Shown in pieces: positions 16,097-31,910 of a stretch of DNA of 64,000 bases. This DNA is from Streptomyces roseifaciens (lineage in GTDB: Bacteria; Actinomycetota; Actinomycetes; Streptomycetales; Streptomycetaceae), in contig NZ_LNBE01000003.1 of the NCBI RefSeq assembly GCF_001445655.1, positions 1,532,530-1,596,529 of the forward strand. Direction: 5' to 3'. Each line of letters opens with the position of its first letter. Positions within the stretch are counted from its first letter, which is position 1. The position numbers and the translations under genes are program-made. Under the pieces are notes generated by a model that did not search any database, was not told the DNA's origin, and saw nothing but the letters and a program-made list of their open reading frames with translations.

Positions 16097-16471
16097 CTAC
16101 ACCTCCAGTTCCGCCTCGATCCGCTTGAGCTGGTGGCGCGCCATCGCCAGGTTGGCGCGCCGGGCGTCCAGCACCAGGTACAGGAAGAGGCCGTTGCCGC
16201 CACGGCCGGACAGCAGCCGGATCAGGTGGTACTGCGAGCCGAGCGTGATGAGGATGTCCTCGATGGCGTCCTGGATGTTGAGCATCTCCATCGTCCGCAG
16301 CTTGGCCCGGACCACGTCCGTGTTGCCCGCGGCGGCCACGTTGAGGTCGAGGGACTGCGACCCGCCGAGGGTGCCCAGCGCCATGCCGCTGCCGTAGTCG
16401 ACGAGGGCCACGCCGAGGGCGCCCTCGATCGAGCTCATCGCGTCCTTGAGGGCCGTTTCGGTGTTCGTCAT
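16097..16471 (-). CDS. Roadblock/LC7-domain protein 1
   Basis: 124 residues forming one roadblock/LC7 domain: ALVDYGSGMALGTLGG, the helix ending VVRAKLRTMEML, then EDILITLGSQYHLIRLL and FLYLVLDARRANLAMARHQLKRIE. Such small proteins (CvnB-like) act as dimeric scaffolds for Ras-like GTPases in streptomycete conservons. The ATG overlaps the stop of roadblock protein 2 by 4 nt (ATGA), so the two are co-translated. No GTPase gene is next to it. Confidence 0.85.
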   Translation of the reverse strand: MTNTETALKDAMSSIEGALGVALVDYGSGMALGTLGGSQSLDLNVAAAGNTDVVRAKLRTMEMLNIQDAIEDILITLGSQYHLIRLLSGRGGNGLFLYLVLDARRANLAMARHQLKRIEAELEV

Positions 16472-16941
16472 GAGGTGATTCCGCTCTGGTTGTCGGGACG
16501 GGGCGTATCGGGACGGGGTGCGTCGAGGCGGGATGCCTCGGGCGGGGCGGGGGCCTGGCGCGGACGCTCCAGGGCTCCGTCGATCAAGGGGGCGATGCGG
16601 GCGCCGGCTCTGCGGGCCTCCAGGTTCAGCCGGCCGACGTTGGCCTCGGCCGAGGCCAGGAGCGTCAGCACGCAGGAGGACCCGGCCGCGTACGTCGCCA
16701 CGTAGCCGCGCTCGCCGCTGACGAGCAGTTCGCGGAAGCCGCCGTGGCCCACGGCGTCCGTCAGCCGCGCGCCCACCCCGAGCGCCGCCGCCGTCAGCGC
16801 GGCCACGCCGTCCGGCTCCATGTCGGTGACCAGGTGCGCGATCACCAGCCCGTCGGTGCTGGCCACCATCGCCCCGGTCAGGTGCGGGACCCGGGCGCGT
16901 AACCCCTGGAGCTCGGTGAGCACCTCGGGTGCGGCGGTCAT
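16468..16941 (-). CDS. Roadblock/LC7-domain protein 2
   Basis: 157 residues from the ATG at 16941, preceded by a strong GGAAGGAG. The roadblock fold covers about residues 5-120: LTGAMVASTDGLVIAHLV, a helix with VAALTAAALGVGARLTDAV, then GYVATYAAGSSCVLTLLASAEANVGRL. A proline/aspartate-rich tail with a DAPRPDTPRPDN repeat follows and looks disordered. It is co-transcribed with roadblock protein 1 (4-nt overlap) and lies 100 nt downstream of the winged-helix-like gene. Confidence 0.82.
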   Translation of the reverse strand: MTAAPEVLTELQGLRARVPHLTGAMVASTDGLVIAHLVTDMEPDGVAALTAAALGVGARLTDAVGHGGFRELLVSGERGYVATYAAGSSCVLTLLASAEANVGRLNLEARRAGARIAPLIDGALERPRQAPAPPEASRLDAPRPDTPRPDNQSGITS

Positions 16942-17041
16942 CGGCTGTCTCCTTCCGGCGAGCTGTCTGAAGGCGCGCCTCATCATGGGATCGGCAGGTG
17001 CAGGCAGGCGTACGGCCCGGTCGTGCAGGTCGGACAGGGAG

Positions 17042-17962
17042 TCACAGGGCCTCCAGGGCGTCGCGGATCCGGTACAGCAGGGAGATCTCCGGAGCGGTGG
17101 GAGGCGGCGGTCCCGGCAGGGCCGGAGCGTCCGCGCGGGGCGTGCGGACCAGGCCGGCGGCCGCCAGCCGCCGCACGTCGAGGAGGGTGGCGAAGGCCGA
17201 ACGCCCCAGCGCCCGCGCGATCTGCAGCGGCGTACGGACGCCGTCGGCCGCGGCGAGCACCGCCTGCCGCCCGCTCGCCGGGCCCGGGCCGCCGCAGCCG
17301 CCGTCGCCGACGGGCACCACCGGCGCCGCATCCACCTCCGGGCAGGGCCAGGCCCGCTCCAGCAGCCTCCGCCGGCGGCCGACCTCCCGCTGGAGCACGG
17401 GCACGGGGACGGGGCGGATGGGGCCCAGCCAGTGCCGGGCCTCGCCGAGGAAGCGGTCGGGCGCGTGCTGGGACCGGTCGAGCGGGGACAGGACGAAGTA
17501 GGCCGCGTCGAACAGCGCGCTCAGGTGGCACAGTTCCAGCTCGCCGCGGCTGAGTCGGCCGCGCTCCACCAGCAGGCTGCCCGCCCGGTAGCCGGGCCCG
17601 CCCTCCGCGACCGCTTCCTCCCAGGCCTGCGGGGACAGCCGGCCGCGGGCGGTCAGCCGCCACCCCATGTCGGGCACGACCGGGCTCTCCGCGTGCACCA
17701 CGGCGCCGTCGGTGAGGTAGAGCGCGCCGACGCGGCCGTGGAGGGCGCCGGTCGCTCCTTCGGCGGCGAGCCGGTCGAGCGTGGGGGCGGGGCGGCCCGG
17801 GGCGGGGGCGGGCCGGTCCGGTGCGGAGGCGGGTAACTCCGATACGGGTAACTCGGGTACGGGTAACGCCGCTGCGGGTGACGCCCCAGGCATGGACGCC
17901 GCAGGTATGGACACCCCAGGTATGGACACCCCAGGTATGGACGCCGCAGGTATGCCGCTCAC
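17042..17962 (-). CDS. DUF4388/winged-helix-like protein with pentapeptide-repeat N-terminus
   Basis: 306 residues; the GTG at 17962 overlaps the stop of roadblock protein 3 (GTGA). Residues 3-60 are built of five-residue units such as (G/A)(V/A)SIP and VSELP, encoded by 15-bp tandem repeats, and are probably disordered. The middle resembles DUF4388/PATAN-type sensor modules (ATGALHGRVGALYLTDGAVVH, then SLLVERGRLSRGELELCHLSALFDAAYFVLSP). The C-terminal third reads as a helix-turn-helix (GVRTPLQIARALGRSAFATL, then VRRLAAAGLVRTP). Genes of this layout occur beside roadblock genes in actinomycetes; the role is unknown, but a regulator or adaptor is plausible. Confidence 0.6.
   Translation of the reverse strand: MSGIPAASIPGVSIPGVSIPAASMPGASPAAALPVPELPVSELPASAPDRPAPAPGRPAPTLDRLAAEGATGALHGRVGALYLTDGAVVHAESPVVPDMGWRLTARGRLSPQAWEEAVAEGGPGYRAGSLLVERGRLSRGELELCHLSALFDAAYFVLSPLDRSQHAPDRFLGEARHWLGPIRPVPVPVLQREVGRRRRLLERAWPCPEVDAAPVVPVGDGGCGGPGPASGRQAVLAAADGVRTPLQIARALGRSAFATLLDVRRLAAAGLVRTPRADAPALPGPPPPTAPEISLLYRIRDALEAL
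17889..17948 (-). repeat. 15-bp coding minisatellite in the winged-helix-like gene
   Basis: Four consecutive 15-bp units (17889-17903, 17904-17918, 17919-17933, 17934-17948) of the type GGTATGGACACCCCA; the second and third are identical and the first and fourth differ at a few positions. A related, more diverged 15-bp array (about 17831-17885, GGGTAAC core) continues the pattern. The unit length keeps the frame and encodes pentapeptides, so copy number could change without breaking the gene. Confidence 0.75.
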
Positions 17963-18342
17963 GCCAGGACCAGCCGCTCGGCGAGGCCCTTGAGCCGGAA
18001 CAGGGCGACGGCGAGATTCGCCTCGTCGCGATCCAGCCACAGGTAGAGGCAGACGCTGCTGTCGAACTCCGTCTCCACGAAGCGGAGGAGGTGGTAGCTG
18101 CCGCGCGCGGTGACGATCAGGTCCTCCACGGGCCCGGTCCGTGCGGTCGCCGCGGTGAACGCGCTGTTCTCGAAGGCGAGCCGGGCCAGCTCGGCGGTGT
18201 CGGCCGCCGCGCTCTCGTGGTCGCGCCCGGGACCCTCGCCCGCCTCTCCCAGCGCGAGCCCGCTCGTCCAGTCCACGAGGCTCGCGCCCCGTGCGCCCGG
18301 GATGGTCATGGCCTCGGCCAGGCACCCGTCGATACCGGTCAC
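17959..18342 (-). CDS. Roadblock/LC7-domain protein 3
   Basis: 127 residues from a GTG at 18342 with GGAGAGGA upstream; first gene of the four-gene unit. The fold is recognisable from GARGASLVDWTSGLALGE, a central helix (TAELARLAFENSAF), EDLIVTARGSYHLLRFVE and CLYLWLDRDEANLAVALFRLKGL. The last segment is close to that of roadblock protein 1 (YLVLDARRANLAMARHQLKRI), which suggests they are paralogues. Its last bases overlap the next gene (GTGA). Confidence 0.82.
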   Translation of the reverse strand: MTGIDGCLAEAMTIPGARGASLVDWTSGLALGEAGEGPGRDHESAAADTAELARLAFENSAFTAATARTGPVEDLIVTARGSYHLLRFVETEFDSSVCLYLWLDRDEANLAVALFRLKGLAERLVLA

Positions 18343-18557: not shown

Positions 18558-20171
18558 CTACTTGACGTTGACCGCGCTCCAGGCCGCTCCGACGGTCTTG
18601 TACTCGGTGCTCGTGGTGCCGTACAGCGCACCGGCGGCCGACAGCGTCGCGGTCCGCGCGGCCTTGTAGTTGGTGTTGGACGTCATGTACGAGGTCAGGG
18701 CCTTGTACCAGATCTTGGCGGCCTTGTCCCGGCCGATTCCGGTGACCTTGGAGCCGTCGGACGTCGGGCTGTCGTACCGGACGCCGTTGATCGTCTTCGC
18801 GCCGCTGCCCTCGGACAGCAGGTAGAAGAAGTGGTTGGCGACGCCCGAGGAGTAGTGGACGTCCTTGCCGCCCACGCCGCTGTACCAGCTGTCGACGGAG
18901 TTGCCGTCCTTGGACGGCTTGTCCATGTAGCGCAGCGGCTTCCCGTTGCCGAAGATGTCGATCTTCTCGCCGATGAGGTAGTCGCCGACGTCCGAGGAGT
19001 TGTTGGCGGAGAACTCCACCGCGGTGCCGAAGATGTCCGACGTCGCCTCGTTGAGCCCGCCGGACTCGGCGCTGTAGATCAGCTTCGCGGTCGCGGCGGT
19101 GACGCCGTGGGTCATCTCGTGGCCCGCGACGTCGATGGCGGTGAGCGGCTTCTTGTTGCCCGTCCCGTCGCCGTAGGTCATGCAGAAGCAGGCGTCGCTC
19201 CAGAACGCGTTGACGTAGCCGTTGCCGTAGTGGGCGCGGGAGTAGGCGGCCTTGCCGTCGTTGCGGATGCCGTTGCGGCCGAAGGCGTTCTTGTAGAAGT
19301 CCCAGGTCACGGCCGCGCCGTAGTGGGCGTCGACGCCCGCGGTGAGTCGGCCGCCGGCCCAGGTGTCGGTCGCGTTGGAGTAGAGCGTGCCGGTGCCGGA
19401 CGTGCCCTGGTTGAGGTCGTAGGTCTTGTGGCCGCCGCGCGCGCCGTCGTTGAGCTGGTAGCTGCTGCCGCTCTTGGTCGTGGTCAGCGGCACGGTCCCG
19501 CTGTACTGGCTGGTGCCGGTGCCCGTCTCGATCGCCTCGTGGCGGAAGAGCTCGGCTCCGGTCGCGGCGTCGGTGATGACGTGCAGCTCGCTGGGCGTGC
19601 CGTCGCGCTGCACGCCCTCGACGACCGTCTCGTAGGCGAGGACCGGTGTGCCGGAGGAGGCCCAGACGACCTTGCGCGGCGTGCCCGCCGAGGGCTTGGA
19701 GGTGTTCGCCGCGGTGGCGGCCGACAGGGCGGTCCTCGCCGCCGCGGACGCGGACTGCGCCGCATCGGTGGAGGTGAGGGAGATGGCTGCTTCGGTGGAC
19801 TTGGTGACGGAGGTGCGGCCGCTCGACTCCTGGTGCACGACGAGGTCGCCGCCGAGGACGGGGAGCCCGGCGTAGGTGCGCTCGTAGCGGGTGTGCACGG
19901 TGCCGTCCGCGTCCTTGACGACGTCCCGGGCGACCAGCTTCTCCTTGGCGCCGAGACCGATCTTCCCGGCCGTGGCGGCGGCGTTGTCCTGCGCGCCGCG
20001 TATCTCGGACGCCCGCTGGTCGGGGCTCATCGGGACCGCCATGGCGCTCGGGCCGCTCTCGGCCTGGGCACCGGCCACGCCGGTCTGCACGGCTACTGCG
20101 CACAGGGCGGCGGAGGCGAGGAGGGCGGTGGTGCGGACGGTGTGGCTGCGGGGGGTGGTGAAGCGTCTCAA
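18558..20171 (-). CDS. Secreted M4 (thermolysin-type) metalloprotease 1
   Basis: 537 residues from a TTG start at 20171 that is supported by AGGAG eight nt upstream. It has a signal peptide (RRFTTPRSHTVRTTALLASA), then an FTP/PepSY propeptide of about 170 residues (RYERTYAGLPVLGGDLVVHQ) needed for folding and self-inhibition. The M4 catalytic domain follows: zinc motif HEMTH, GGLNEATSD supplying the third zinc ligand Glu, and HYSSGVANHFFYL holding the transition-state His. Length and order match streptomycete griselysin-like neutral proteases. It works outside the cell as a general protease. The upstream region holds the bipartite element shared with the two other secreted proteases. Confidence 0.93.
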   Translation of the reverse strand: MRRFTTPRSHTVRTTALLASAALCAVAVQTGVAGAQAESGPSAMAVPMSPDQRASEIRGAQDNAAATAGKIGLGAKEKLVARDVVKDADGTVHTRYERTYAGLPVLGGDLVVHQESSGRTSVTKSTEAAISLTSTDAAQSASAAARTALSAATAANTSKPSAGTPRKVVWASSGTPVLAYETVVEGVQRDGTPSELHVITDAATGAELFRHEAIETGTGTSQYSGTVPLTTTKSGSSYQLNDGARGGHKTYDLNQGTSGTGTLYSNATDTWAGGRLTAGVDAHYGAAVTWDFYKNAFGRNGIRNDGKAAYSRAHYGNGYVNAFWSDACFCMTYGDGTGNKKPLTAIDVAGHEMTHGVTAATAKLIYSAESGGLNEATSDIFGTAVEFSANNSSDVGDYLIGEKIDIFGNGKPLRYMDKPSKDGNSVDSWYSGVGGKDVHYSSGVANHFFYLLSEGSGAKTINGVRYDSPTSDGSKVTGIGRDKAAKIWYKALTSYMTSNTNYKAARTATLSAAGALYGTTSTEYKTVGAAWSAVNVK

Positions 20172-20477: not shown

Positions 20478-20672
20478 TCAGCTCTTTCTGTCGCTCCACG
20501 CGAGTTGTATGGATTCCAGAATGCGGACGTTGTAGCGGGCCGGGTCGTCGCCGAAGCCGTCCAGCCCGACCACCAGGTCGCGGACCTCGGGGAATTCGAC
20601 GGCGAGCGGCTTGCGCTCCGGGTGCTTCGCGGCGAGTTGCGCCGCGATCTGCTGGATGTCAGTCCATCGCAT
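20478..20672 (-). CDS. iscX: IscX-like small acidic Fe-S assembly protein
   Basis: 64 residues that align without gaps to the whole of E. coli IscX (YfhJ) as I recall it. Shared positions include WTD near the start, I-x3-L, P-x3-P-x2-V-x-F, LxxFxDDP, N, ILExIxLxW and D near the end. IscX binds the cysteine desulfurase IscS and iron and tunes cluster assembly in the ISC system. That is odd here because actinomycetes normally rely on SUF and lack isc operons. The ATG at 20672 lies inside the last codons of the MFS gene (14-nt overlap), so it is the last gene of the RiPP operon, whose first gene encodes a [4Fe-4S] radical SAM enzyme. A role in supplying or repairing that cluster is inference. 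Confidence 0.8.
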   Translation of the reverse strand: MRWTDIQQIAAQLAAKHPERKPLAVEFPEVRDLVVGLDGFGDDPARYNVRILESIQLAWSDRKS

Positions 20673-21942
20673 GCGCCCGAGTGTGACCTACACCGTTCGA
20701 ACGGTCCAGGGAGTCCGCCGTGCCGAGCGCGGCGTCGCGCGGGGAGGCGGCGGCGAGCGCGGCCAGGAGCGCGCCGAAGAGCAGGAAGAGGACGTGGCCG
20801 GGCAGTTCGTCGAGGAACAGACCGGTCAGGGACGAGCCGAGCGGGGGAGCGGCCATGAACAGCAGCCCGATGGCACTGTTCGCCCGGCCCTGCAGATGCG
20901 CCGGGGTACGCACGAGGCGGGCGACCGTCAGCACCGAACCCGAGACGGCAACCGCCAGGGTGCACCCCGCCAGCAGTACGGCGAGGACCGGCGCGCTCGC
21001 CGTGCAGGCCATCGCGCCGACGAGCAGCGCGCACAGCACGCCGGTGGCGGACAGGACCCGGGAAGGGGAGAGGAGCCGGCCCACGCGCGGGGCGAGGACG
21101 ACCCCGGCCATCGCCCCCACCGCCGACGTCGCCGTGAGCATCCCGACGGACAGCCCCGACGCTCCCTGCCGGGCGCTGATCACGACGATGGCCAGGTACA
21201 CCCCGTCGAAGACGAAGTTCTGCGCCGACGCGACGAGGGTCAGGCGGCGCAGCAGGCGCTCGTTCCACAGGAAGCCGATGCCCACGGTGAACGACCGCCA
21301 CAGGCCCTCGCGCCCGGCGTCCGGCGGGGGCGGCCCCGTCCGCGTACGCAGCGCGCCGACGCATCCGGCGGAGACCGCGTAGGAGACGCTGTCCAGCCAG
21401 AACGGCCAGCTCGCCCCCGCCTCGAACAGCGCACCGCCGACCACCGGCCCCAGCAGGAACGCGAACTGGCCCCGTACCTGGTTGACCGCCAGGGCGGTGG
21501 CCAGTCTGCTCTCCGGCACGACCTGCCGGACCGCCGGCAGGACCGCGGCGTTGAACGGCGCCGTCAGGAACCCCAGCACCACCCCCGCCGCCAGCAGGAC
21601 CGGCAGCGGCGAGAAGCCGGTGAGGACCGCGGTCGCCAGGGCCGCACTCGCCGCCGCCCGGCCGGTCTCGCAGACCAGCAGGACCGTACGGCGGTCGAAG
21701 CGGTCGGCGACCGGGCCCGCCGGCAGACAGGCCAGCGCCAGCGCACCGGTCCACACCGCCTCCACCAGCCCCACGTGCAACGGCGAGTGCGTGGCCTGCA
21801 GGACCAGCAGCGGCAGCGCGATGGCCGAGGCGCCCGAGCCCAGCATCGACAGCCCCTGCCCGGCGCACAGCAGCTGGAAGTCCCGGTTGCGGCGCAGGCT
21901 GTCGGAGGGCGGCCCCGGCCGCCCGGCCGCCCGGGGCTTCAC
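20659..21942 (-). CDS. MFS transporter of the RiPP operon
   Basis: 427 residues with about twelve hydrophobic helices and the MFS loop motif PAGPVADRFDRRTVLL between helices 2 and 3, plus LGPVVGGALFE in the fifth helix region. The build resembles EntS/MFS_3-type exporters. The GTG at 21942 overlaps the stop of lanthipeptide synthetase 2 (GTGA), and its own end overlaps iscX. No ABC transporter lies in the operon, so this protein is the likely exporter of the peptide product or a self-resistance pump. A leader peptidase domain is not visible. Confidence 0.88.
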   Translation of the reverse strand: MKPRAAGRPGPPSDSLRRNRDFQLLCAGQGLSMLGSGASAIALPLLVLQATHSPLHVGLVEAVWTGALALACLPAGPVADRFDRRTVLLVCETGRAAASAALATAVLTGFSPLPVLLAAGVVLGFLTAPFNAAVLPAVRQVVPESRLATALAVNQVRGQFAFLLGPVVGGALFEAGASWPFWLDSVSYAVSAGCVGALRTRTGPPPPDAGREGLWRSFTVGIGFLWNERLLRRLTLVASAQNFVFDGVYLAIVVISARQGASGLSVGMLTATSAVGAMAGVVLAPRVGRLLSPSRVLSATGVLCALLVGAMACTASAPVLAVLLAGCTLAVAVSGSVLTVARLVRTPAHLQGRANSAIGLLFMAAPPLGSSLTGLFLDELPGHVLFLLFGALLAALAAASPRDAALGTADSLDRSNGVGHTRAHAMD

Positions 21943-24566
21943 GGCCCCGACCCCGGCGGACGCCCGCACGGCGCCGGTGGCGACGACGGCGGCGGGAGCA
22001 GCGGCAGGGGCGGGGGCGCCATCCGTGCCGGGCCGCCGGCCAGTGCGGTGTGCACCGCCAGCAGGACGCCCGCGGCGCCGGTCGCGAGGTCCATGGACAG
22101 TCGCAGCAGCCCGTCGAGCGCGAAGGCCCGCCGGCCCTGGAACCGTACGCAGTGGAGGCCCAGACTCCGCAGGTGCGGGACCAGTGCGGAGTCGGGGCCG
22201 GCAAGGTGGGCGAGGCCGTACAGCAGCCCCGCCTGGCCGTCCAGGAGGCCGGGGGAGAGGAGCAGTTCGGTGCCGAGGCCGTCGCGCATGCGGTCGCGGA
22301 GGAGCGCGAAGTGCGGGTCGTCGGGGCGGTGCTGCAGGTACGCGTCCAGGGCGAGCGCGATGCCCGCGCTGCCGCGGTCCAGGGTCGACAGCCACCGCTG
22401 CCCCTCCCGGACGTGGACCTGACCCGCGCGCGGCGCACCGCAGCGGCCGAGGTCCCTGGCCAGCGCGTTCTCCGCGTGCCGCAGCCACTCCTGTTCGCCC
22501 GTCCTCGCATACAGCCCGGTGAACAGCAGCGCCGGTCCCGACCAGCCGTGCGTGAGGCCCACGGCGTCCGGCTTGCCCGCCACCTGCTCACGGCCCGCGA
22601 GTGCGCGGGCGAGCCGGTCGGCGAGCCGCGCCGCCTCGTCCGCGTCACCGAAGTGCAGGCGGGTCAGCCCGATCCCGGCGAGACCGCCGAACAGGCCCGC
22701 ACCACACCCCTGGAGGCCGATCCCGCCCAGCCGCACGAGCACCTCACGGGCTTCGCCGGGCCGGCCCAGCTCGTCCAGGACGTAGGCGATTCCGGCCAGC
22801 CCGTCGTACAGCCCGGGCCGCGGCCAGCGGGTGCGCTCGCAGGCCCGCACCAGCCAGTCGACGTGGTCGCCGAACGCGGGGTGGTCCGCCCGCCCCGTGA
22901 CGTACAGGGCGTGCAGGACCCCGGCCGCGCCGAACGCCAGCGACGCGCCCTGATCGTCGAACTGCCGCACGTCCCCGGGGAACAGCCGGTCCGCCCGCTC
23001 CGGCGTCGCGCTGAGCAGGATGCCCTCGCGGAGGGAGTCCAGAGCGGCCCGCCCGTCGGCCGTACGCTCCTCAGGCCAGGGCGAGTCGTCCGGTGCGGCG
23101 TCCGCGAAGGGTTTGTCCGCGAAGGGTTTGTCCTCGATCCGTACGGAGGCCGGCGGCGCGAGCTCCCTGCGCAGCCGGTCGCCGAAGCCGGGCGGCACCG
23201 GGAACCGCCCCTCCACCCAGCCCGCCAGCTGCGCGTACTTCGCCCGGGCGAAGCGCAGCAGCGGCGTCAGCGGGCAGAACAGCGCGAGGGTCAGGGCGGC
23301 GAGCGCGTACGTGTCGACGGCGCGACCCGACCGGGCCCACGCGGCGGTGAACCCGGGCGTGCCCAGGACGGGCCGGAGACCGGCGTCGTCCTGCGCGGAA
23401 GCCGTCTCGCAAGCCGTCTCGAAGTCGACCAGGCAGACGCTGTCGTCGGGGCGCACGATGACGTTGCCGGGCTGCAGGTCCCCGAAGACGATGCCGCGCG
23501 CGTGCAGTTCGGCCACGGCCTTCTCGACCCGCCCGAGGACGTCGCAGGCCCACCGCGTGTACGAAGCGACCTCCTCCTCGCCGGAGCCGTGCTGGAACAG
23601 CGGGTGACGCCTGCCGACCGCCTCCTGCAGGGTCTCGCCCTCGACCAGCTCCTCCACGAGGAAGTGGTGCTCCCAGTGGCGCGTCCGCGCGTACACCCGG
23701 GGCACGCAGTCGAGGCCGGCCAGCCGCTGCAGCACCGCGTGCTCGCGCTCCAGGCGCGCCACGGCGTCCAGGCCGCTGTCGTCCAGACCGGCGTGCGGCC
23801 GCGCTTCCCGCAGGACGACCCGCCTGCCGGAACCCTTCTCCACGGCGCGGTACACACCACCGCCGTTCGAGAAGTGCAGCGCCTTCTCCACCCGGTACGG
23901 AAAGCCCCCGGGCGTGCCCGCCTTGGCCGCCCGGATGCGGGCGCCCAGGAAGGCGGGCGCCTCCACCCACGGCGGCACCCGGAACGACGTACCCCGCACA
24001 TCGGGCACGAGGACGCCTCCCGGCCCCTCCATCGCCGGCACGTATTCGCCCTCGGGCGAGAAGCAGTAGGCGAGGCTGAAACCGCCGTAACGCACGTACA
24101 GCGGGCCTTCGTCCCAGCGCAGGTCGCTCAGGACGTACGGGCCTTCGACGCCGCGCAGCAGCGCCGAGAGGTCCGTCAGCGTCCGCTCCAGCTCCTCCTC
24201 GCCGCCGGGGTAGACGGTGACGAGCTTGCCCCCGGCCGAGCGCGGCGCCTGCTTGCTGTTGACGTGCTTGAACACGGTGGCGCTCCGGAGGAACTTGAAG
24301 CAGATGCCGCGCCCGGTGCAGTAGTCCCAGACCGTGTCGATCACGTGCTCCGCCCGGGCGGCCGTGGCGGAGGCGTGGATCTTCCAGCCCTGCCCGGGCA
24401 GCCGGGCCTCCGGCCGGTGGATGTTCACCCAGCCGCCGCGCTCGGCACGCTGCCAGCCCGGAGGCGGAGGGCCGGCCGCGCGGGCGAAGCGGTCGGCGGC
24501 GTCCTCGATGCGGTCGAGCGTCTCGACGAAGTAGGGGTCCGCGACGAGATGACCCTGAGCGAGCAT
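21939..24566 (-). CDS. Class III lanthipeptide synthetase 2 (catalytically complete LanKC)
   Basis: 875 residues from the ATG at 24566 (GGAAGG upstream). Lyase domain about 1-200: GWKIHAS, FKFLRS (Lys91), SKQAPRSAGGK, TVYP and YVRYGGF. Kinase domain about 220-500: FSNGGGVYRA, VVLREARPHAGL, a catalytic loop GIVFGDLQPGN with Asp363, and metal-binding VDFE with Asp381. C-terminal LanC-like cyclase from about 560 with GLYDGLAGIAY and GLTHGWSG but without the Cys-Cys-His zinc ligands, which separates class III from class IV. Enzymes of this class phosphorylate Ser/Thr, eliminate phosphate and add Cys. It follows precursor 2 and overlaps the MFS gene. All three activities look possible, in contrast to synthetase 1. 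A Pro-rich tail is of unclear use. Confidence 0.92.
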   Translation of the reverse strand: MLAQGHLVADPYFVETLDRIEDAADRFARAAGPPPPGWQRAERGGWVNIHRPEARLPGQGWKIHASATAARAEHVIDTVWDYCTGRGICFKFLRSATVFKHVNSKQAPRSAGGKLVTVYPGGEEELERTLTDLSALLRGVEGPYVLSDLRWDEGPLYVRYGGFSLAYCFSPEGEYVPAMEGPGGVLVPDVRGTSFRVPPWVEAPAFLGARIRAAKAGTPGGFPYRVEKALHFSNGGGVYRAVEKGSGRRVVLREARPHAGLDDSGLDAVARLEREHAVLQRLAGLDCVPRVYARTRHWEHHFLVEELVEGETLQEAVGRRHPLFQHGSGEEEVASYTRWACDVLGRVEKAVAELHARGIVFGDLQPGNVIVRPDDSVCLVDFETACETASAQDDAGLRPVLGTPGFTAAWARSGRAVDTYALAALTLALFCPLTPLLRFARAKYAQLAGWVEGRFPVPPGFGDRLRRELAPPASVRIEDKPFADKPFADAAPDDSPWPEERTADGRAALDSLREGILLSATPERADRLFPGDVRQFDDQGASLAFGAAGVLHALYVTGRADHPAFGDHVDWLVRACERTRWPRPGLYDGLAGIAYVLDELGRPGEAREVLVRLGGIGLQGCGAGLFGGLAGIGLTRLHFGDADEAARLADRLARALAGREQVAGKPDAVGLTHGWSGPALLFTGLYARTGEQEWLRHAENALARDLGRCGAPRAGQVHVREGQRWLSTLDRGSAGIALALDAYLQHRPDDPHFALLRDRMRDGLGTELLLSPGLLDGQAGLLYGLAHLAGPDSALVPHLRSLGLHCVRFQGRRAFALDGLLRLSMDLATGAAGVLLAVHTALAGGPARMAPPPLPLLPPPSSPPAPCGRPPGSGP

Positions 24567-24676
24567 GGTGACCTTCCCTTGCGGACTCCGGCGGGTCCCG
24601 GACTTCTGCGGGACCTTGTGACGACCTGCCGGCCGCGGGCAGCCCACGGCCGGCAGTCCTTACGGGCAACGACGCG

Positions 24677-24772
24677 TCAGGCGACGCCGCGAGCGCTCTC
24701 GTAGCTGTTGGCGCAGGGCCACGCGGAAGGGGTCTCCTCCTCCAGCTCCTGCAGTTCCAGGACCTCCGACAT
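24677..24772 (-). CDS. Lanthipeptide precursor peptide 2
   Basis: 31 codons, preceded by an excellent AGGAGGTGA seven nt before the ATG. The leader, MSEVLELQELEEE, carries the (I/V)LxLQxLE-type motif that class III synthetases bind. The core region reads TPSAWPCANSYESARGVA. It has a single Cys (position 20) with Ser16 four residues before it and Ser23, Ser26 and Tyr24 after it. Precursor 1 has the same pattern: TPS, WPCANS and a Ser three residues later are conserved, while other positions vary. The usual class III order Ser-x2-Ser-xn-Cys is absent, so at most one ring per peptide is expected. It lies between precursor 1 and synthetase 2. Confidence 0.88.
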   Translation of the reverse strand: MSEVLELQELEEETPSAWPCANSYESARGVA

Positions 24773-24833
24773 GTGCTTCACCTCCTCTCGGGGCGGTGCA
24801 TCGTGTGGATCCGGCACACCCGTGCACGGGCTG

Positions 24834-24929
24834 TCAGCCCATGCCGAGGGTGCTGTGGGAGCTGTTGGCGCAGGGCCACTGGGAGGGGGTCTCCTCCTCC
24901 AGCTCCTGCAGGTCCAAGATCTCCGACAT
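24834..24929 (-). CDS. Lanthipeptide precursor peptide 1
   Basis: 31 codons starting at ATG 24929, with GGAGGTGA upstream; the Shine-Dalgarno overlaps the stop of synthetase 1. The leader MSEILDLQELEEE is nearly identical to that of precursor 2. The core reads TPSQWPCANSSHSTLGMG: one Cys at position 20, Ser16 before it, Ser23, Ser24, Ser26 and Thr27 after it. Spacing from synthetase 1 is 5 nt, so it is co-transcribed. The two precursors arose by duplication, because even the nucleotide sequence around the leader is conserved. Confidence 0.88.
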   Translation of the reverse strand: MSEILDLQELEEETPSQWPCANSSHSTLGMG

Positions 24930-24934
24930 CCGAA

Positions 24935-27631
24935 TCACCTCCGCTCTTCGGCTCGTCGGGCCGGCGGCCGCGGGTCGAGGTACGGCAGGGCGGGGCCGCT
25001 GCCCTCGAACGCGGATCCCAGAGCGAGCAGTACGCCTGCCGAACCGGTGGCGAGGTCCGCCGAAAGCCGCAGCATCCGGAAGCCCGGGAACGCGAGGTGC
25101 CCGCGGTAGGAGTGCGCGTACCAGGCCAGGCGGCGGATCTGGGTGAGGACCGCGGGCTCGTCCCCGGCCCCGCCCCTCCCTCCGCTCCCGGCCCTCTCCC
25201 CGCTCCCGGGAAGAGGGCCGTCCAGCGCCGCGAGCGTGGCGATCGCGCCCGCCCGTCCCCGCAGCAGCCCGGAGTTGCGCACGTAGAGGGCCCGGCAGGT
25301 GTGCCGGACGGCGGCGAGCGTCGCGGCCCTCTCACCCCCGGGCCGGTGCCTGAGCAGGCCCTGCAGGGGGAACGCGAGCCCGCTGCTCCCGCCGTGCAGG
25401 TACGGCAGGTGATGGGTGCCGTCGAAGAGGGTGAGGGCGCCGTCGCCCTGGACGGTGCACCGGTCGGCGTCGAGGCCCACCGCGCGGTCGGCGAGATCGA
25501 GGTGACGCGTCTTCCCGGTCTCCTCGTACAGGTGCAGGAAGAGCAGGGCGATGCCCGCCGCGCCGTGCAGGAGGCCGCAGGGCGGGGGGACGCCGCGCCG
25601 GGCTGCGAGCGGACCGGCCGTGACGAGCGCGGCCGGCTCCTCGGCGGTACGCAAGGCGCTTTCGTGCAACGCCGCGTCCCCGGTGGCCCGCGCGAACCGC
25701 AGCAGGTTCAGGGCGATGCCCGCCTTGCCGCCCGCCAGGTCGGGGCGGACCGCCTGCGCGTCGAGCGGGCGGCAGCGGGCGAGGACTTCGAGGGCCTGCT
25801 CGCGGTGGCCGAGCAGGTCGAGGGTCAGGGCGACGCCGTGCAGCCCGTCGTACAGGCCCGGCCGGGGTGCGGGGTCGCGCTCGGCGGCGGTCACGAGCCA
25901 CGCGACGTACTCGGCCGGCACCTGCGCGCCCACCCGGTGCAGGGCGTAGAGGACCCCGGCCGCGCCGTAGTCGAACGCGTAGCCGCCCAGGGAGTCCGGG
26001 CCGGTCGGCGTGCAGGGGAAGAGCCGGTCCTCGCGCTCCGGCGTGGCCATGGCGTGGATGCCGGCGACCAGGGAGTCCCGGACGGCCGGCCAGTCGGGGC
26101 GCTCCGCGGCGAGCATCCCGGCGTGGTCCTCCGAGGCCGCGTCGTCCCCGCGTAACGGACCGGTGCCGCGTACCGGTCCGGCGCTGTGGGGCGGCAGGCC
26201 GGGCCGCAGCCCGGTCAGCAGTCCGTCCCCGAAACGCGCGGGCAGCGGGTACAGCTCGTCCACGGCCGCGGTGAGGACGCGCAGCGTCGCCGGGCTGCGG
26301 TACGGGACGGGCAGCAGGAGCCACAGCCGCAGGGCGTCGAGGAGGAAGGCCGTCGCGTCCGCGCCCCGCAGGCCGGGCGGCGCCGTGAACCCTTCCTCGC
26401 CCAGCGCCGACGGCCTGTCGTCGGCGAGGTCCGTGGCGGTCTCGAAGTCGACGAGGACGACGCGCCCGTCGGCGCGGAGCAGGATGTTCTTCGGGTTGAG
26501 CTCGCCGAGGCGCAGGCCCCGGGTGTGGAGGGCGCGCAGGGCTCCGCCGATCCCGTCCACGGTCTTCAAGGCCCAGGCGGCGTACCCGGGTGCCTCTTTG
26601 GCGGCCCGTTCGTCCGAGGTCAGAGGGAATCCGGCGGCCGCGGCTTCGGCCAGCGTGCGGCCCTCGACGTGCTCCACTGCGAGGAAGTGGTGCCCGGCGT
26701 GGACGTGGTGGCCGAGGGCGCGGGGCACGCAGTCCAGGCCTGCCAGCCGCGCGAGGACGGCGCGCTCGTGGGTGAGACGGGTGACGGCGTCGTCGCCGCG
26801 CAGGTCCAGTCCGGCGTGGGGCCGTGCCTCCCGCAGGACGACCGTGGCGCCGGTGACGCTGTCGGTCGCCAGGTACGTGCCGCCGCCGTTGGTGATGTTC
26901 AGGGCCTTCCGCACCCGGTAGGGGAAGGGGCCGTCGGGGGCGGTGTGCAGGGCCGCCAGGTCCGGGCCGAGGATCCCGGGCAGGGGAACCCAGTCCGGGC
27001 AGCGGAAGACCGGGCGGCGGTTCTCGGGGACGAGGCTCCCGTCGGGGCGCTGCAGCGCGGGGACCAAGGCGGGCTCGTCGCCGGGACCGTAGGCCCGGCC
27101 GTCGCCGAGGGCCTGGGGACATCGGCGGGCTCCGGAAGAGCCGTAGCGGACGTAGAGGGGGCCGGACCGGTGGCGCAGACCGCCCAGGACGTACGGGCCC
27201 GGCAGCGTCTCCAGCAAGGTGGTGAGCTCCGTGAGCGCAGCGGCGAGCGCGGCCTCGTCGGCGGGGTGGAGCGTCATCAGGTCGGCGCCGGTGAGGCGGT
27301 CCGCGTGTTCGTCGCCCAGCGCCCGGGCGGCGGGCACGCTGCGGACGACGTCGAAGGGCATGTCGTGGCGCAGGCAGAAGCCACGGACGATCTCCGCCGC
27401 CCGCGCGAGGCGGGGCAGCGTCACGGACACGTGGATCCGCCATCCCTGCGCGGGCGGTTCCACCGCCCGCGGCCGCAGGGTCACCCACCAGCCCGCGTCC
27501 GTACGCTCCCAGCCCTTCGGCGGTGTGCGGCGAGCGGCGGGCAGCCATTCCGCCGAGTCGTCGAGCCGCTCGGGTGATTCGAAGAAGTCCGGATCCGCCC
27601 GGTAGAAGCGGTCGTAGTCCTTGAGTTTCAT
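24935..27631 (-). CDS. Class III lanthipeptide synthetase-like protein 1 (degenerate kinase and lyase)
   Basis: 898 residues from ATG 27631 (GGAGGGG upstream). The full LanKC layout is present: lyase-like region 1-215, kinase-like 235-520, LanC-like cyclase from about 590. Key residues differ from synthetase 2. The catalytic-loop Asp is Glu377 (RLGELNPKN), the lyase FKF lysine position is Asp94 (PFDVV), SKxxxRxxxGK is replaced by a stretch lacking both Lys, and YVRYGGF reads YVRYGSS. The metal-binding VDFE (Asp395) and REARPHAGL are kept. The cyclase lacks zinc ligands, as in class III. The gene is intact and in operon, so it probably has a non-catalytic or partly catalytic role such as scaffold, leader binding or cyclase. 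Reduced activity is inference. Confidence 0.88.
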   Translation of the reverse strand: MKLKDYDRFYRADPDFFESPERLDDSAEWLPAARRTPPKGWERTDAGWWVTLRPRAVEPPAQGWRIHVSVTLPRLARAAEIVRGFCLRHDMPFDVVRSVPAARALGDEHADRLTGADLMTLHPADEAALAAALTELTTLLETLPGPYVLGGLRHRSGPLYVRYGSSGARRCPQALGDGRAYGPGDEPALVPALQRPDGSLVPENRRPVFRCPDWVPLPGILGPDLAALHTAPDGPFPYRVRKALNITNGGGTYLATDSVTGATVVLREARPHAGLDLRGDDAVTRLTHERAVLARLAGLDCVPRALGHHVHAGHHFLAVEHVEGRTLAEAAAAGFPLTSDERAAKEAPGYAAWALKTVDGIGGALRALHTRGLRLGELNPKNILLRADGRVVLVDFETATDLADDRPSALGEEGFTAPPGLRGADATAFLLDALRLWLLLPVPYRSPATLRVLTAAVDELYPLPARFGDGLLTGLRPGLPPHSAGPVRGTGPLRGDDAASEDHAGMLAAERPDWPAVRDSLVAGIHAMATPEREDRLFPCTPTGPDSLGGYAFDYGAAGVLYALHRVGAQVPAEYVAWLVTAAERDPAPRPGLYDGLHGVALTLDLLGHREQALEVLARCRPLDAQAVRPDLAGGKAGIALNLLRFARATGDAALHESALRTAEEPAALVTAGPLAARRGVPPPCGLLHGAAGIALLFLHLYEETGKTRHLDLADRAVGLDADRCTVQGDGALTLFDGTHHLPYLHGGSSGLAFPLQGLLRHRPGGERAATLAAVRHTCRALYVRNSGLLRGRAGAIATLAALDGPLPGSGERAGSGGRGGAGDEPAVLTQIRRLAWYAHSYRGHLAFPGFRMLRLSADLATGSAGVLLALGSAFEGSGPALPYLDPRPPARRAEERR

Positions 27632-27754
27632 CACGGCGGCCCCTCCGTTCGGTAGCGGTGAGGAATTCCATCGGGCGTGGAGGCGGAATCGGGGATACGC
27701 CGGGGCGAATCCCGTCCGGGGTATCTCGTACGCGCAGCTGTCAAACAACACCGG

Positions 27755-28864
27755 CTATTGCGCAACGGCGGTGAATTCCGGGGGATTCGTACGGACCGAG
27801 CGCCGGCGGATCCGCGCCAGGTCCTCCGGGGAACCGAAGCGGAGGTCCATCCGCCGGACGGCCTCCGCCCAGGTCTGCATGGAGTGCACCGAGGAGAGGG
27901 TCTCCACGACGAAGGGATCCTTCAGCCGGTCCAGCGTGCGCTCCCACAGCAGCGCCGCGGGCTCTTCGAGGAGGCTGCCGACCGTCCCTTCGTAGACCGG
28001 GATCCCGCGCACCCTGCCGTCCGGCTCCACCTGCATCACCGGGGTGTCGACGCGGCGCGCCACCCGCTCGGGGGTCATGGCGAGGTTGAAGTTGTCCGTG
28101 GTGAAGACCGACACCGAAGCGGGGGCGAGCTCGCGCAGCCGGGCCAGCTGTTCCGCGCTGGTCAGCCGGGCCACCTGGGCGTCGTCGAGGAGTTCGCGGC
28201 GGCAGAATTCCCGGCGGCTGGCGAGCCCTTCGGGGACGGCCGAATTGAAGGCCAGGGTGCGCAGCCGGGGGAACCGGTGGGCGATGTCGGCGGCGAAGTC
28301 CTCCAGCTGACCGAAATTGCTGCGGATCACCACGCAGTCGATGCCGAAGACCAGCCGTTTCCGCCCCGTCGCCAGGCGCTCCTCCGCCACCTCGTCCAGC
28401 AGCGCCAGCGCGGCCATGACGCGGTCGAAGGAGCCGGCCCGGCCCCGGATGCGGTCGTGGACCTCGGGCGTCGCTCCGTCGAGGCTGACGACGACCTCGT
28501 CGAAGTGGTCGGCGAGGCGCCCGGCGAGCGCCCGGTTCATCACCCAGCCGCTGGTGTTGACGGACATCCTCACGCCTGCGTCGCGCAGCCGCGCCGCCAC
28601 CTCGAAGACGCCCTGGACGATGAGTGGTTCGCCGCCGGACAGGGCGACGACCCGCGGCCCGAGCGGGACGAGGGCGTCGGCGACCCGGAGCATGTCCGGC
28701 GGGCTCAGCTGCCGGGACGGGCGGCGGCCCGACTCCGAGTAGCAGTGCGAGCAGCGCAGGGGGCAGGCGTAGGTGGTGTCCCAGACGATCACTTCGGGAC
28801 CGGACTCGGGGCCGGACTCAGGACCGGACTCGGTACCGGACTCGGAACCGGAGGAACGACTCAT
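27755..28864 (-). CDS. Radical SAM enzyme of the RiPP operon
   Basis: 369 residues; first gene of the operon, 123 nt ahead of synthetase 1. The ATG at 28864 is followed by an odd Ser/Gly/Glu-rich repeat (SGSESGTESGPESGPE) before the fold begins. The radical SAM cluster motif CPLRCSHC (Cys34, Cys38, Cys41), the GGEP motif in ALSGGEPLIV and the VVVSLDGATPE strand are all present. The C-terminus aligns with the shape of SPASM/twitch domains (VMQVEPDGRVRGIPVYEGTVGSL) but has no cysteines there, so only one [4Fe-4S] cluster is predicted. No RRE/PqqD-like domain is visible. The reaction is unknown; thioether, C-C crosslink or epimerisation of the Trp-Pro-Cys-Ala-Asn core are options. Confidence 0.88.
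   Translation of the reverse strand: MSRSSGSESGTESGPESGPESGPEVIVWDTTYACPLRCSHCYSESGRRPSRQLSPPDMLRVADALVPLGPRVVALSGGEPLIVQGVFEVAARLRDAGVRMSVNTSGWVMNRALAGRLADHFDEVVVSLDGATPEVHDRIRGRAGSFDRVMAALALLDEVAEERLATGRKRLVFGIDCVVIRSNFGQLEDFAADIAHRFPRLRTLAFNSAVPEGLASRREFCRRELLDDAQVARLTSAEQLARLRELAPASVSVFTTDNFNLAMTPERVARRVDTPVMQVEPDGRVRGIPVYEGTVGSLLEEPAALLWERTLDRLKDPFVVETLSSVHSMQTWAEAVRRMDLRFGSPEDLARIRRRSVRTNPPEFTAVAQ
28802..28849 (-). repeat. 12-bp coding repeat at the radical SAM N-terminus
   Basis: Four 12-bp units (GGACTCGGGGCC, GGACTCAGGACC, GGACTCGGTACC, GGACTCGGAACC) in tandem, encoding repeats of Gly-x-Glu-Ser on the minus strand. The array keeps frame and adds a flexible acidic extension ahead of the catalytic barrel. 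Confidence 0.7.
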
Positions 28865-29137: not shown

Positions 29138-31204
29138 ATGTCCTTCGTGGCAGCAGCCAGAAGCAGGGGGATGCGCGTCATCGCCGTATGCGGCGGACTG
29201 TGCATGCTCTGGGCAACGCTCGTCGGGACGACCCAGCTGCAGAACAGGTATACGCTGCCGTGGATCCTGGGTTCCGTTCTCCCGTGCTATTTCGCCGGCT
29301 TGTTCATTTGGTGGCACGCACCGTCAAGTCCGGTCGCAAGGCGCCTCTTGCTGATCGGTACCTGGCTTTCGGTGACCATTGCGATTCGTTACAGCACCAC
29401 ACTTCTGATCCGGGCCTTCGGCTGGAACCTCCGCCCGCGGCCCTACGCCCTCCTCCTGCCCGCGGACTACGGCCTCCAGGTCCTCAGCCAGACCTGCGAC
29501 CTGACCGTCAGCATCCTCCTCGTCCGGCTGCTCGCCCTGCTGCCCGACGGCTCCTTCCTCTTCCCCTACGAGCGCCGGATCCTGCGCGCCCTGTGGGGTC
29601 TGCTGGCCCTGCCCCTCCTGCTGCCCCTGACCGGGATGTCGCAGCTCGCCGTCCACTACGTCGTCTTCTACTACCCCGAGGCCTGGATGCCGGGCCTGGG
29701 CGCCGTCCTCCTCGTCGTGCGCTGCCTGCGCGCCCACGGCGCCGGCCGCCCGGACGTCGCCGCCCTGCTGCCCTTCGCCGTGCCCGGCGCGGCACTCCTG
29801 CTGTTCCGGGCCGCTTCCCGGCTCTTCCGCTCCTGGCAGGGCGAGCAGGGCGTGCTCTACTTCGTCGGCGCCGTCCTCGGCGCGCTGCCCTACGTGTCCG
29901 TGTCCCTCGTCATCGTCTACGCCGCCTTCCGCCACCGCCTCCTCGGCGTCGACCTCGTGCTCCGCCGCTCGGCCGTCTACGGATCCCTGTGGCTCATCAT
30001 CAACAGCTGGTACCTCGGCATGGCCCTCACCCTCGGGCTCACCGCGGGCCAGTACTTCCCCGTCGGCCTGTCCCTGCTCGTCGCCGTCGTCGCCACGGCC
30101 CTCTTCCAGCCCCTGCGCGCCCGCCTCAACGCCCTCGCCGAGCGCCGCGTCTTCGGCAAGCGCCTCAGCCGGTTCGAGCTCCTCGTCCAGTTCGGCACCA
30201 CCCTGGAGCATGCCTACGACCTCGACCGGCTCGCACCGCAGCTCGCCAACGGCCTGCGCGAGGGCCTGAACCTGCAGTGGGTCGCCGTCCGGCTCGGCGG
30301 CGACGGACTGCCCGTGTCCGCGGCCGAGGCCGGGGAACGGCCCCCAGGCACCGCGCCCCTCGGGGAGTTCCCCCTCCTGTACGGCGAGGACGTCCTGGGC
30401 CTCATCGAATACGGCCCCAAGGCCGAAGGCCGCTGCACCCCCGAGGACCACGACATCGGCGAGACCCTCGCCCGCTCCGCCGCCCTGGCCGTGCACAACA
30501 TGCGCCTCGCCGCCGAGCTGTGCGCCCGCGTCGAGGAGGTGCAGCGGCAGGCCGCCGAGCTCGACGCCTCACGCGCCCGCATCGTCCATGCCCAGGACAC
30601 CGAGCGCCGCCGCATCGAACGCCGGCTCCACGACGGCATCCAGCAGGAACTCGTCGCCCTCGTCGCCAAACTGGCCCTCGCCCGCAACCGCCTGCACCGC
30701 GGCGGCGACATCGACGCCGCCCTGACCGAGGTGCAGGACGACGCCTACCGCGTCATCGACGGGCTGCGCGAACTCGCCCACGGCATCCACCCGCCGATCC
30801 TCACCGACCAGGGCCTCGTGGCCGCCGTGACCTCCTGCGCCCGCCGGATGCCCCTCCCCGTCACCGTCCACAGCGAGGAGTCGCTGGGCGGGGTGCGCTT
30901 CGCCCTCGACGTCGAGGAGTCCGCCTTCTACCTGGTCTCCGAGGCGCTCACCAACGTGCTCAAGCACGCCGGAGCCACCCACGTCACCATCCGCATCGCC
31001 CGCAGCGGCGGCCGGCTCCTGGTGGAGGTCCGCGACGACGGCGCCGGATTCCCCACCGAGACCACCCGCGGATCCGGGCTCACCGGCATGCGCGACCGCA
31101 TCGAGGCCGTGGGCGGCGAGCTCACGATCACCAGCGGCACCGGTACGGGCACCACCATCCGTGCGCGGCTCGTGGAGCGAGTGAGGGAGGAGACCCGTGC
31201 CTGA
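29138..31204 (+). CDS. NarL-type membrane sensor histidine kinase
   Basis: 688 residues. About ten hydrophobic segments fill residues 10-320, an unusually large membrane input domain, followed by a GAF-like region (about 340-450), a helical linker and the HisKA_3 dimerisation helix with the phospho-acceptor in ERRRIERRLHDGIQQELVAL. The HATPase domain shows EALTNVLKHAGA (N box), DDGAGF and GSGLTGMRDR. It would phosphorylate the response regulator encoded by the next gene, which it overlaps by 8 nt. An alternative start is the Met at 29171. Divergent orientation from the RiPP operon suggests it may control that operon. Confidence 0.9.
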   Translation: MSFVAAARSRGMRVIAVCGGLCMLWATLVGTTQLQNRYTLPWILGSVLPCYFAGLFIWWHAPSSPVARRLLLIGTWLSVTIAIRYSTTLLIRAFGWNLRPRPYALLLPADYGLQVLSQTCDLTVSILLVRLLALLPDGSFLFPYERRILRALWGLLALPLLLPLTGMSQLAVHYVVFYYPEAWMPGLGAVLLVVRCLRAHGAGRPDVAALLPFAVPGAALLLFRAASRLFRSWQGEQGVLYFVGAVLGALPYVSVSLVIVYAAFRHRLLGVDLVLRRSAVYGSLWLIINSWYLGMALTLGLTAGQYFPVGLSLLVAVVATALFQPLRARLNALAERRVFGKRLSRFELLVQFGTTLEHAYDLDRLAPQLANGLREGLNLQWVAVRLGGDGLPVSAAEAGERPPGTAPLGEFPLLYGEDVLGLIEYGPKAEGRCTPEDHDIGETLARSAALAVHNMRLAAELCARVEEVQRQAAELDASRARIVHAQDTERRRIERRLHDGIQQELVALVAKLALARNRLHRGGDIDAALTEVQDDAYRVIDGLRELAHGIHPPILTDQGLVAAVTSCARRMPLPVTVHSEESLGGVRFALDVEESAFYLVSEALTNVLKHAGATHVTIRIARSGGRLLVEVRDDGAGFPTETTRGSGLTGMRDRIEAVGGELTITSGTGTGTTIRARLVERVREETRA

Positions 31205-31910
31205 CCCCCTGCGCGTCGTCATCGCCGAGGACCACTACCTGGTGCGCGAAGGCACCCGGCGGCTGCTGGAGGACACCGGACAGGCCGACGTCGTCGCCGC
31301 GGTCGGCACGGCCGTCGAGCTCCTCGACGCCGTCGAGCGCTTCCGCCCCGACGTCGTCATCGCCGACATCCGCATGCCGCCCGGCCACCACACCGAGGGC
31401 ATCACCGCCGCGCACGCCATCCGCGCGGGCCACCCCGGCATCGGCGTCGTCGTGCTCTCCCAGCACGCCAACGAGAACTACGCCTTCGACCTCTTCCGCT
31501 GCGGCACCGACGGCCTCGCCTACCTCCTCAAGGAGCGCATCGGCGAGGTCGACGAACTGCTGCGCGCCCTGCGCGAGGTGGTCGCCGGGCGCTCCGTGGT
31601 CGACCCCCGCATCGTGGAGGTGCTGATGGGCAGCCACGCCCGCACCGCCGACGCACCGCTGTCGAGGCTCACCCGCAGGGAGCTCGACGTCCTGCGGCAC
31701 ATGGCGGAGGGCAAGACCAACCGGGCGATCGCCGAGTCGCTGCGGCTGTCGGAGTCGACCATCGAGAAGCACGTCAACTCCACCTTCGCCAAGCTGGGCC
31801 TCGCCGAAATACCGCAACTGCACCGGCGCGTCAGCGCCGTCCTGGCCTATCTCCGGCACGCGCCGCACGGGCCGCACGGATCGCATGGATCGCACGCGCC
31901 GCACAACTGA
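31197..31910 (+). CDS. NarL/FixJ-type response regulator
   Basis: 237 residues from a GTG at 31197 with GGGAGGAG upstream, overlapping the kinase gene. The receiver domain has the acidic pocket (AEDH), the phospho-acceptor Asp in PDVVIADIRMPP and the conserved Lys in LLKERIGEV. The C-terminal LuxR helix-turn-helix reads LTRRELDVLRHMAEGKTNRAIAES and STIEKHVNSTFAKLGL. The last residues form a His-rich repeat (HGPHGSHGSHAPHN) that could bind metal but may simply be low complexity. It probably binds the palindrome at 29068-29089. Confidence 0.9.
   Translation: MPDPLRVVIAEDHYLVREGTRRLLEDTGQADVVAAVGTAVELLDAVERFRPDVVIADIRMPPGHHTEGITAAHAIRAGHPGIGVVVLSQHANENYAFDLFRCGTDGLAYLLKERIGEVDELLRALREVVAGRSVVDPRIVEVLMGSHARTADAPLSRLTRRELDVLRHMAEGKTNRAIAESLRLSESTIEKHVNSTFAKLGLAEIPQLHRRVSAVLAYLRHAPHGPHGSHGSHAPHN

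Follow-up and report, generated by a model that had tools for sequence, protein, structure and literature searches.

Which chemistry does a lanthipeptide operon encode when it holds two class III synthetase genes and, beside them, the gene of a radical S-adenosylmethionine (radical SAM) enzyme? The question is raised by a stretch of 64,000 nucleotides from Streptomyces roseifaciens (contig NZ_LNBE01000003.1, positions 1,532,530 to 1,596,529, forward strand), called the window below. An operon on its minus strand contains genes for the radical SAM enzyme, a first LanKC-type protein (KC1), two precursor peptides, a second LanKC (KC2), a major facilitator superfamily (MFS) exporter and IscX. An earlier note on this DNA had placed these seven genes at 20478-28864, and all of them were recovered from the sequence and by profile searches.

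The overall best explanation, and probably the correct one, is that KC2 dehydrates the precursors, that KC1 acts as cyclase or scaffold, and that the radical SAM enzyme modifies an aromatic-Pro-X site. The new points are a pseudo-LanKC and the pairing of a radical SAM enzyme with a precursor motif across two lanthipeptide classes; they point to an undescribed peptide modification. Radical SAM genes do occur in lanthipeptide clusters, according to PMC7268733. The literature searched, with most subscription journals outside reach, held no description of this radical SAM-lanthipeptide family, of the motif or of a pseudo-LanKC, and the family is apparently undescribed.

Gene order and precursor motif in relatives

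A scan of 297 genomes from the host's family detected the radical SAM gene in six, the host's own being one of them, and the nearest proteins in a large protein collection (96% identity) are from S. rectiverticillatus and S. roseifaciens. A scan of contigs for the gene gave 100 matching stretches; the 80 that ranked best were retained and make up 76 named loci. The window and 17 of these loci (L013-L021, L023, L025-L027, L029, L032, L036 and L082) have the full order radical SAM-KC1-precursor-KC2, and chance is therefore excluded as an explanation of the gene order. Three further loci are of the same type: KC1 is in pieces in L024 and missing from L028, and L022 ends inside KC1. The remaining radical SAM loci have a single class III synthetase (13 in the alignment set) or a class IV synthetase (27, assigned to class IV by NF038150 scores above 1000 bits for two representatives and by similarity for the others). 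The earlier note had named missing linkage of the radical SAM and IscX genes to the synthetases in relatives as a finding that would refute its reading; the radical SAM gene is linked, as the 17 complete loci demonstrate. These comparisons support the view that the radical SAM gene, the two LanKC genes and the precursor genes form one conserved biosynthetic unit. A hybrid of lanthionine and radical chemistry on the same peptide, as first suggested from the sequence, is the best reading. P450-like genes flank the class III synthetase near the radical SAM gene in L072, L073 and L075 (identified by Pfam for L073 and by gene clustering for the others).

Both window precursors score below the cut-offs of the NCBIfam class III precursor models (precursor 1 at best 17.3 against 22; precursor 2 19.4 against 27 and 19.4 against 22). 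A second precursor is also found in eight named loci, L013-L020. With known class III systems (ThurKC/andalusicin, SapB/AmfS) the window shares the LxLQ leader, the LanKC domain order and, in KC2, the intact residues. It differs from them in the pseudo-synthetase KC1, the conserved radical SAM neighbor and a Trp-Pro-Cys (WPC) motif; moreover, the sole Cys of each window core precedes the core Ser/Thr, with no SxxSxxxC. The labionin motif SxxSx(3-5)C is absent from both window precursors. Noursin (PMC10206099) has a similar LELQEL-type leader and one core Cys, but the window precursors reach only 13.4 and 15.2 with NF050143, for which the cut-off is 40. According to that paper, noursin has a single NorKC; the genes named are NorKC, NorA, NorP and NorF, with unspecified other enzymes, and the term "radical SAM" is confined to the reference list.

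The WPC of both window precursors has the aromatic-X2-X3 substrate pattern of triceptides. For the motif counts, precursors were called by a leader pattern only, which was devised after precursors had been seen and contains no letters of the motif. The radical SAM set comprised 79 loci (the window, L009, L011 and L013-L088). In 21 of them no open reading frame (ORF) was called; of the 58 with a leader-called ORF, 51 have [WFYH]PC and five have aromatic-Pro with another third residue (WPT in L028, WPP in L035 and L044, WPE in L041, WPD in L074). Neither form occurs in the other two, and both of these ORFs look spurious. A motif search found motif-bearing ORFs in L049, L062, L071 and L077 that the leader calls had missed and that stand outside the count of 51. 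The control set consisted of 82 loci after removal of the repeats L116-L118. Five of these hold a radical SAM gene, and [WFYH]PC was present in 5/5; the other 77, with a synthetase and no radical SAM gene nearby, served as controls. An ORF was obtained from 65 of the controls (12 gave none), with [WFYH]PC in one (L181), aromatic-Pro elsewhere in three and no motif in 61. The difference between the two sets has a Fisher p of 1e-25, which is overstated since relatedness is ignored. The motif is found as WPC on LELQEL leaders, as HPC on LQLQ or LELQ leaders, and as YPC, FPC or WPC on ALQxL or ALDML leaders, at least three types in all. The radical SAM family thus accompanies class III and class IV synthetases whose precursors carry aromatic-Pro, usually as [WFYH]PC, at the leader/core border. 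The class IV ALQxL family (NF038157) with LanL shares the radical SAM family and the aromatic-Pro(-Cys) motif with the window; its leader differs, and its synthetase is LanL whereas the window is class III.

Several observations weigh against the pairing of enzyme and motif. Only 1.5 kb on each side is covered in 27 of the 77 controls, and a radical SAM gene farther away would escape. The genome of L193 (G403) has a radical SAM gene elsewhere despite the motif-free precursor of L193. One motif-free paralogue each is present in L053 and L080 (RSC and MAC). In the L033 genome the radical SAM gene is present and the class IV precursors read LRPC; in the genome that holds the FPC-bearing class III precursor L181:7705-7806 no radical SAM match was found. 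Ten actinobacterial radical SAM loci (L030, L031, L033, L034, L040, L061, L064, L068, L076 and L083) have no synthetase in the scanned stretch, and among them a recognised precursor occurs only in L040.

The cases of L181 and L033 would agree with a different function of aromatic-Pro-Cys: a shared element of structure, such as a Pro turn by which the core is positioned, or of proteolysis, such as a site of leader cleavage, with the radical SAM enzyme acting elsewhere on the peptide. Where precursors were compared, the motif is near the leader/core border, which would agree with this as well. This is considered unlikely. Near-identical class IV leaders differ in the site itself, which is present as MELDINALDMLPAADESSL-WPC in L053, with a radical SAM gene, and replaced in MELDINALEMLPATEETQL-RGC and -RDC of L193 and L194, where a local radical SAM gene is absent; for L194 the whole genome gave no match. 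In addition, [WFYH]PC was found in only 1/65 controls, and the motif stays the same where the nearby proteases differ (S9 in the case of class IV, M4 next to the cluster of the window). A target site of the radical SAM enzyme is therefore the preferred interpretation of the motif.

For the synthetase-free radical SAM loci, 11 of 24 class IV matches were inspected (the ten above cut-off and the next one; these 11 are in six genomes). Three of the 11, in two genomes, have WPP, WPP and YPP precursors (L258, L259 and L255) and a radical SAM gene elsewhere in the genome, which suggests action of the enzyme in trans. Another of the 11, L257, is on the same contig as its radical SAM gene, about 15 kb apart by coordinates. 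The radical SAM homologues of Microvirga (L084-L088, 40-43%) have a syntenic neighborhood without a synthetase, and LanL gave no match at E <= 1e-80 in the two Microvirga genomes tested (L084 and L085).

The radical SAM enzyme and its possible product

In an alignment of 63 radical SAM sequences the CxxxCxxC motif is present in 63/63, and C34, C38 and C41 are the only invariant cysteines. No further invariant Cys of the kind expected for an auxiliary (SPASM) cluster was found among the 63, and the C-terminal region lacks the SPASM set; outside the motif, C177 occurs in 35/63 and C191 in 49/63. None of the best 25 of 65 NCBIfam matches was above cut-off, the best of those being TIGR03962 (99.8 against 265). 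The AlphaFold2 model is confident, with a mean pLDDT (per-residue confidence) of 90.8, and is similar to SkfB and viperin-like enzymes. In the structure comparison the Z scores of these are close to those of SuiB and others, and therefore the chemistry cannot be read from the fold. SkfB, a maturase of ribosomally synthesised and post-translationally modified peptides (PDB 6efn), has 22% identity; the enzyme of the window differs from it by the absence of SPASM cysteines.

With its single SAM-binding [4Fe-4S] motif, the enzyme would modify aromatic-Pro-X at the leader/core border, as the association with the motif suggests. A link from the aromatic residue to position i+2, as in triceptides, would fit the set of residues. 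In some class IV cores the part that begins with the aromatic residue has three Cys and a single Ser/Thr (FPCCGTC, FPCRCSC, FPCKCTC), and therefore not all of these Cys can become lanthionine. X3 may also be Pro, Glu, Asp or Thr, so that some sites do without a thiol. The likeliest product would be a crosslink between the aromatic residue i and residue i+2, usually Cys; this is the weakest step of the proposal. Triceptides (three-residue cyclophanes) likewise have W, F, Y or H at i and the target at i+2; the first triceptide enzymes contain SPASM domains, according to PMC11002830, in contrast to the enzyme described here, which has no extra Cys. Known cyclophane synthases have SPASM clusters, and their absence here tells against a cyclophane.

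Alternatively, the enzyme could epimerise the aromatic residue or the Cys, giving a D-residue beside Pro and no crosslink. In radical SAM epimerases a Cys of the enzyme serves as hydrogen donor (EpeE C223A is named in a structure title), and no Cys outside CxxxCxxC is invariant in the 63 sequences. The count of cysteines weakens the epimerase reading, which is considered unlikely, and a crosslink is ranked above it with low confidence. The same count weakens a SPASM-type reading of the enzyme.

KC1, KC2 and the proposed pathway

The earlier note had counted two class III synthetases. KC2 bears this out; KC1 lacks the five residues of dehydration described below. The alignment comprised 80 synthetases next to radical SAM genes (19 KC1, 21 KC2, 13 single class III and 27 class IV). 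L008, L010 and L012 (same contigs as L032, L027 and L062), the two pieces of KC1 in L024, two wrong-frame calls and all open frames <=700 aa were left out. In KC2 numbering, K62, K91, K114, D148, D363, N368 and D381 are invariant in the 61 synthetases other than KC1, and these residues and H64 are each kept in 21/21 KC2. The first five are kept in 0/19 KC1, the window KC1 having R65, D94, D117, G151 and E377 in their place; N368 is kept in 6/19 and D381 in 4/19. In ThurKC, a relative of solved structure, K65 and K94 align with K62 and K91, and the exchanges K65A and K94A abolish modification (PMC10604976).

Consensus columns (33 in the lyase, 31 in the kinase and 38 in the cyclase domain) were derived without KC1 and KC2, from 13 single class III, 43 control and five class IV synthetases (61 in all). 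The retention in lyase, kinase and cyclase is 98.8%, 99.2% and 94.9% in KC2, which has LanKC relatives in the PDB, and 63%, 75% and 99.3% in KC1. The ratio of nonsynonymous to synonymous substitution (dN/dS) between the window and six relatives is 0.29-0.44 for KC1 and 0.27-0.40 for KC2. KC1 is constrained much like KC2, and its cyclase domain is under purifying selection; for this reason KC1 is most likely a cyclase, or else a scaffold complexed with KC2. KC1 would thus be a maintained pseudo-synthetase and probably no synthetase by itself.

Some features of KC1 count against a clean loss of dehydration and a pure ring-closing role. The window KC1 retains the kinase Asn and the Asp of the DFE motif, so that the lyase shows the decay most clearly; across the group, lyase H64 is retained in 17/19, R159 in 16/19 and R191 in 17/19. 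From these retained residues a residual activity of KC1 may be possible. The column taken as ThurKC D771 is Arg in 19/19 KC1, and it varies in other class III groups too; a cyclase activity of KC1 is putative for this reason. In S. orinoci (L028) KC1 is missing, the core LWPTTNLDAAD is free of Cys, and the radical SAM gene and KC2 remain. This would fit a ring-closing role for KC1, with the weakness of a single case.

The absence of KC1 in S. orinoci, its fragmentation in the S. lilacinus draft (L024) and the varied ways in which the lyase and kinase residues were lost could also mean that KC1 is a functionless, decaying relic, replaced by KC2 within the operon. Such a relic is improbable with a dN/dS near that of KC2, a cyclase consensus of 99.3% against 63% for the lyase, and open frames of more than 700 aa in 19 loci of the radical SAM-KC1-KC2 type. 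It is hardly credible that each LanKC is a full synthetase, KC1 for precursor 1 and KC2 for precursor 2. The window and L013-L020 do combine two precursors with two synthetase genes, but KC1 is without the dehydration residues, and a single precursor is found in 9/17 complete loci (L021, L023, L025-L027, L029, L032, L036 and L082).

Trees were calculated with FastTree from a set that included 5 of the 27 class IV and 43 control synthetases. KC1 is monophyletic (support 1.0). In the lyase-kinase tree KC1 is nested among the single LanKCs of radical SAM clusters (0.967), with KC2 separate (1.0). A tandem duplication as the origin of KC1 and KC2 finds no support in these trees, given the grouping of KC1 with single LanKCs. 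KC1, KC2 and 31 controls are united by a deeper branch with a support of only 0.71-0.73. The economical reading is acquisition of a second synthetase, after which the older one, KC1, lost dehydration. In the cyclase tree five controls fall inside the clade of KC1 and single LanKCs, which counts against the overall explanation.

In the preferred pathway KC2 would bind the LxLQ leader of both precursors, then phosphorylate and eliminate core Ser/Thr, as its intact residues suggest. KC1 is regarded as an old LanKC that belongs to this radical SAM lineage; it would be unable to dehydrate after the loss of five catalytic positions in 19/19, and would most likely close rings or form a scaffold with KC2. 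The three activities of ThurKC are reported to depend on one another (PMC10604976). The most specific form of the proposal, a two-protein class III synthetase together with a radical SAM enzyme free of auxiliary clusters that crosslinks an aromatic residue to i+2 and serves classes III and IV, sometimes in trans, is tentative and rather unlikely to hold in full. If true, the pseudo-LanKC would be a natural split of dehydration from cyclization in class III; the radical SAM family would have a readable target motif common to two lanthipeptide classes, making the pairing of precursor and enzyme directly testable; and a SPASM-free peptide maturase would widen what such enzymes need. The genome of the window contains three additional LanKC loci (L100, L179 and L187), one of them with three precursors.

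Layout, transport, regulation and other neighbors

The features of the operon and the adjoining regulatory genes are listed in Table 1.

Table 1. Features of the radical SAM-lanthipeptide locus in the window
Feature	Position	Strand	Remarks
Radical SAM enzyme, 369 aa	27755-28864	-	PF04055 81.5 bits
CPLRCSHC (CxxxCxxC; three Cys expected to hold [4Fe-4S])	28742-28765	-	Invariant 63/63
KC1, probable pseudo-LanKC: lyase and kinase sites decayed, cyclase conserved	24935-27631	-	NF038151 742 bits, cut-off 575
Precursor 1, MSEILDLQELEEETPSQ-WPCANSSHSTLGMG	24834-24929	-	LxLQ-type leader; orthologues with similar cores in relatives
Trp-Pro-Cys of precursor 1, proposed radical SAM site	24870-24878	-	
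Precursor 2, MSEVLELQELEEETPSA-WPCANSYESARGVA	24677-24772	-	Basis as for precursor 1
Trp-Pro-Cys of precursor 2, proposed radical SAM site	24713-24721	-	
KC2, class III lanthionine synthetase, intact consensus in all domains	21939-24566	-	NF038151 925 bits, cut-off 575
MFS exporter, MFS_3-like, probable product export	20659-21942	-	PF07690, PF05977
IscX, Fe-S assembly accessory	20478-20672	-	TIGR03412 76.6 bits, cut-off 40.4
Sensor histidine kinase, divergent, probably of the cluster	29138-31204	+	PF07730, PF02518
LuxR-type response regulator, partner of the histidine kinase	31197-31910	+	PF00072, PF00196

With the chosen starts, the gaps are 123 nt between the radical SAM gene and KC1, 5 nt between KC1 and precursor 1, 61 nt between the precursors and 110 nt between precursor 2 and KC2; KC2 and the MFS gene overlap by 4 nt, the MFS and IscX genes by 14 nt. 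Spacers of 100-130 nt had been described around the radical SAM gene, precursor 2 and KC2; the gap between the precursors is shorter than that.

The gene after KC2 encodes an MFS protein in the window and in 11/20 named loci of the radical SAM-KC1-KC2 type (L013-L020, L029, L036 and L082). ATP-binding cassette (ABC) transporters adjoin other radical SAM genes, e.g. in L012 and L048; the pump of the radical SAM clusters is variable. The histidine kinase and response regulator pair at 29138-31910 (plus strand) had been overlooked earlier. With E <= 1e-150 as threshold, 4/121 Streptomyces genomes have the kinase, all four together with the radical SAM gene; 18 named loci (L013-L029 and L032) have both regulatory genes near the radical SAM gene. 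From position and co-occurrence, the MFS protein would export the product and the divergent pair would control expression. The same pair is found about 5 kb downstream of two Streptomyces class IV radical SAM loci (L035:16393-19078 and L041:16371-19092; response regulator 83-85%, kinase 58-59%).

IscX had been regarded as part of the gene set, which does not hold in relatives. Among the same 20 loci, it adjoins the cluster in four (L013-L016), lies elsewhere in the genome in seven and is absent in nine, so that the linkage to the synthetases is mostly missing. A role as core gene was rejected, as 9/20 genomes are without IscX and 7/11 copies are unlinked. The surroundings of eight unlinked copies gave no match in searches with other window proteins. 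The window IscX is the sole match in its own genome. IscX is above cut-off in 6/295 Streptomyces genomes, all six with the radical SAM gene (its own genome and five others). This would suit a functional coupling at first sight; alternatively, the six may share IscX by descent. IscX is best regarded as a lineage-specific passenger or helper, which may aid Fe-S supply in one clade, outside the core.

The cluster lies between two genes for M4 (thermolysin-type) metallopeptidases, at 18558-20171 (minus strand) and 32025-33158 (plus strand). Among the 76 named loci, only L013-L016 likewise have M4 matches on both sides; a part of these peptidases in leader removal is possible. Short ORFs at about 16468-18325 (minus strand) resemble roadblock/LC7 regulatory proteins, an impression from their translations. 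A cobalamin riboswitch (93.4 bits) was located at 47700-47877 on the minus strand.

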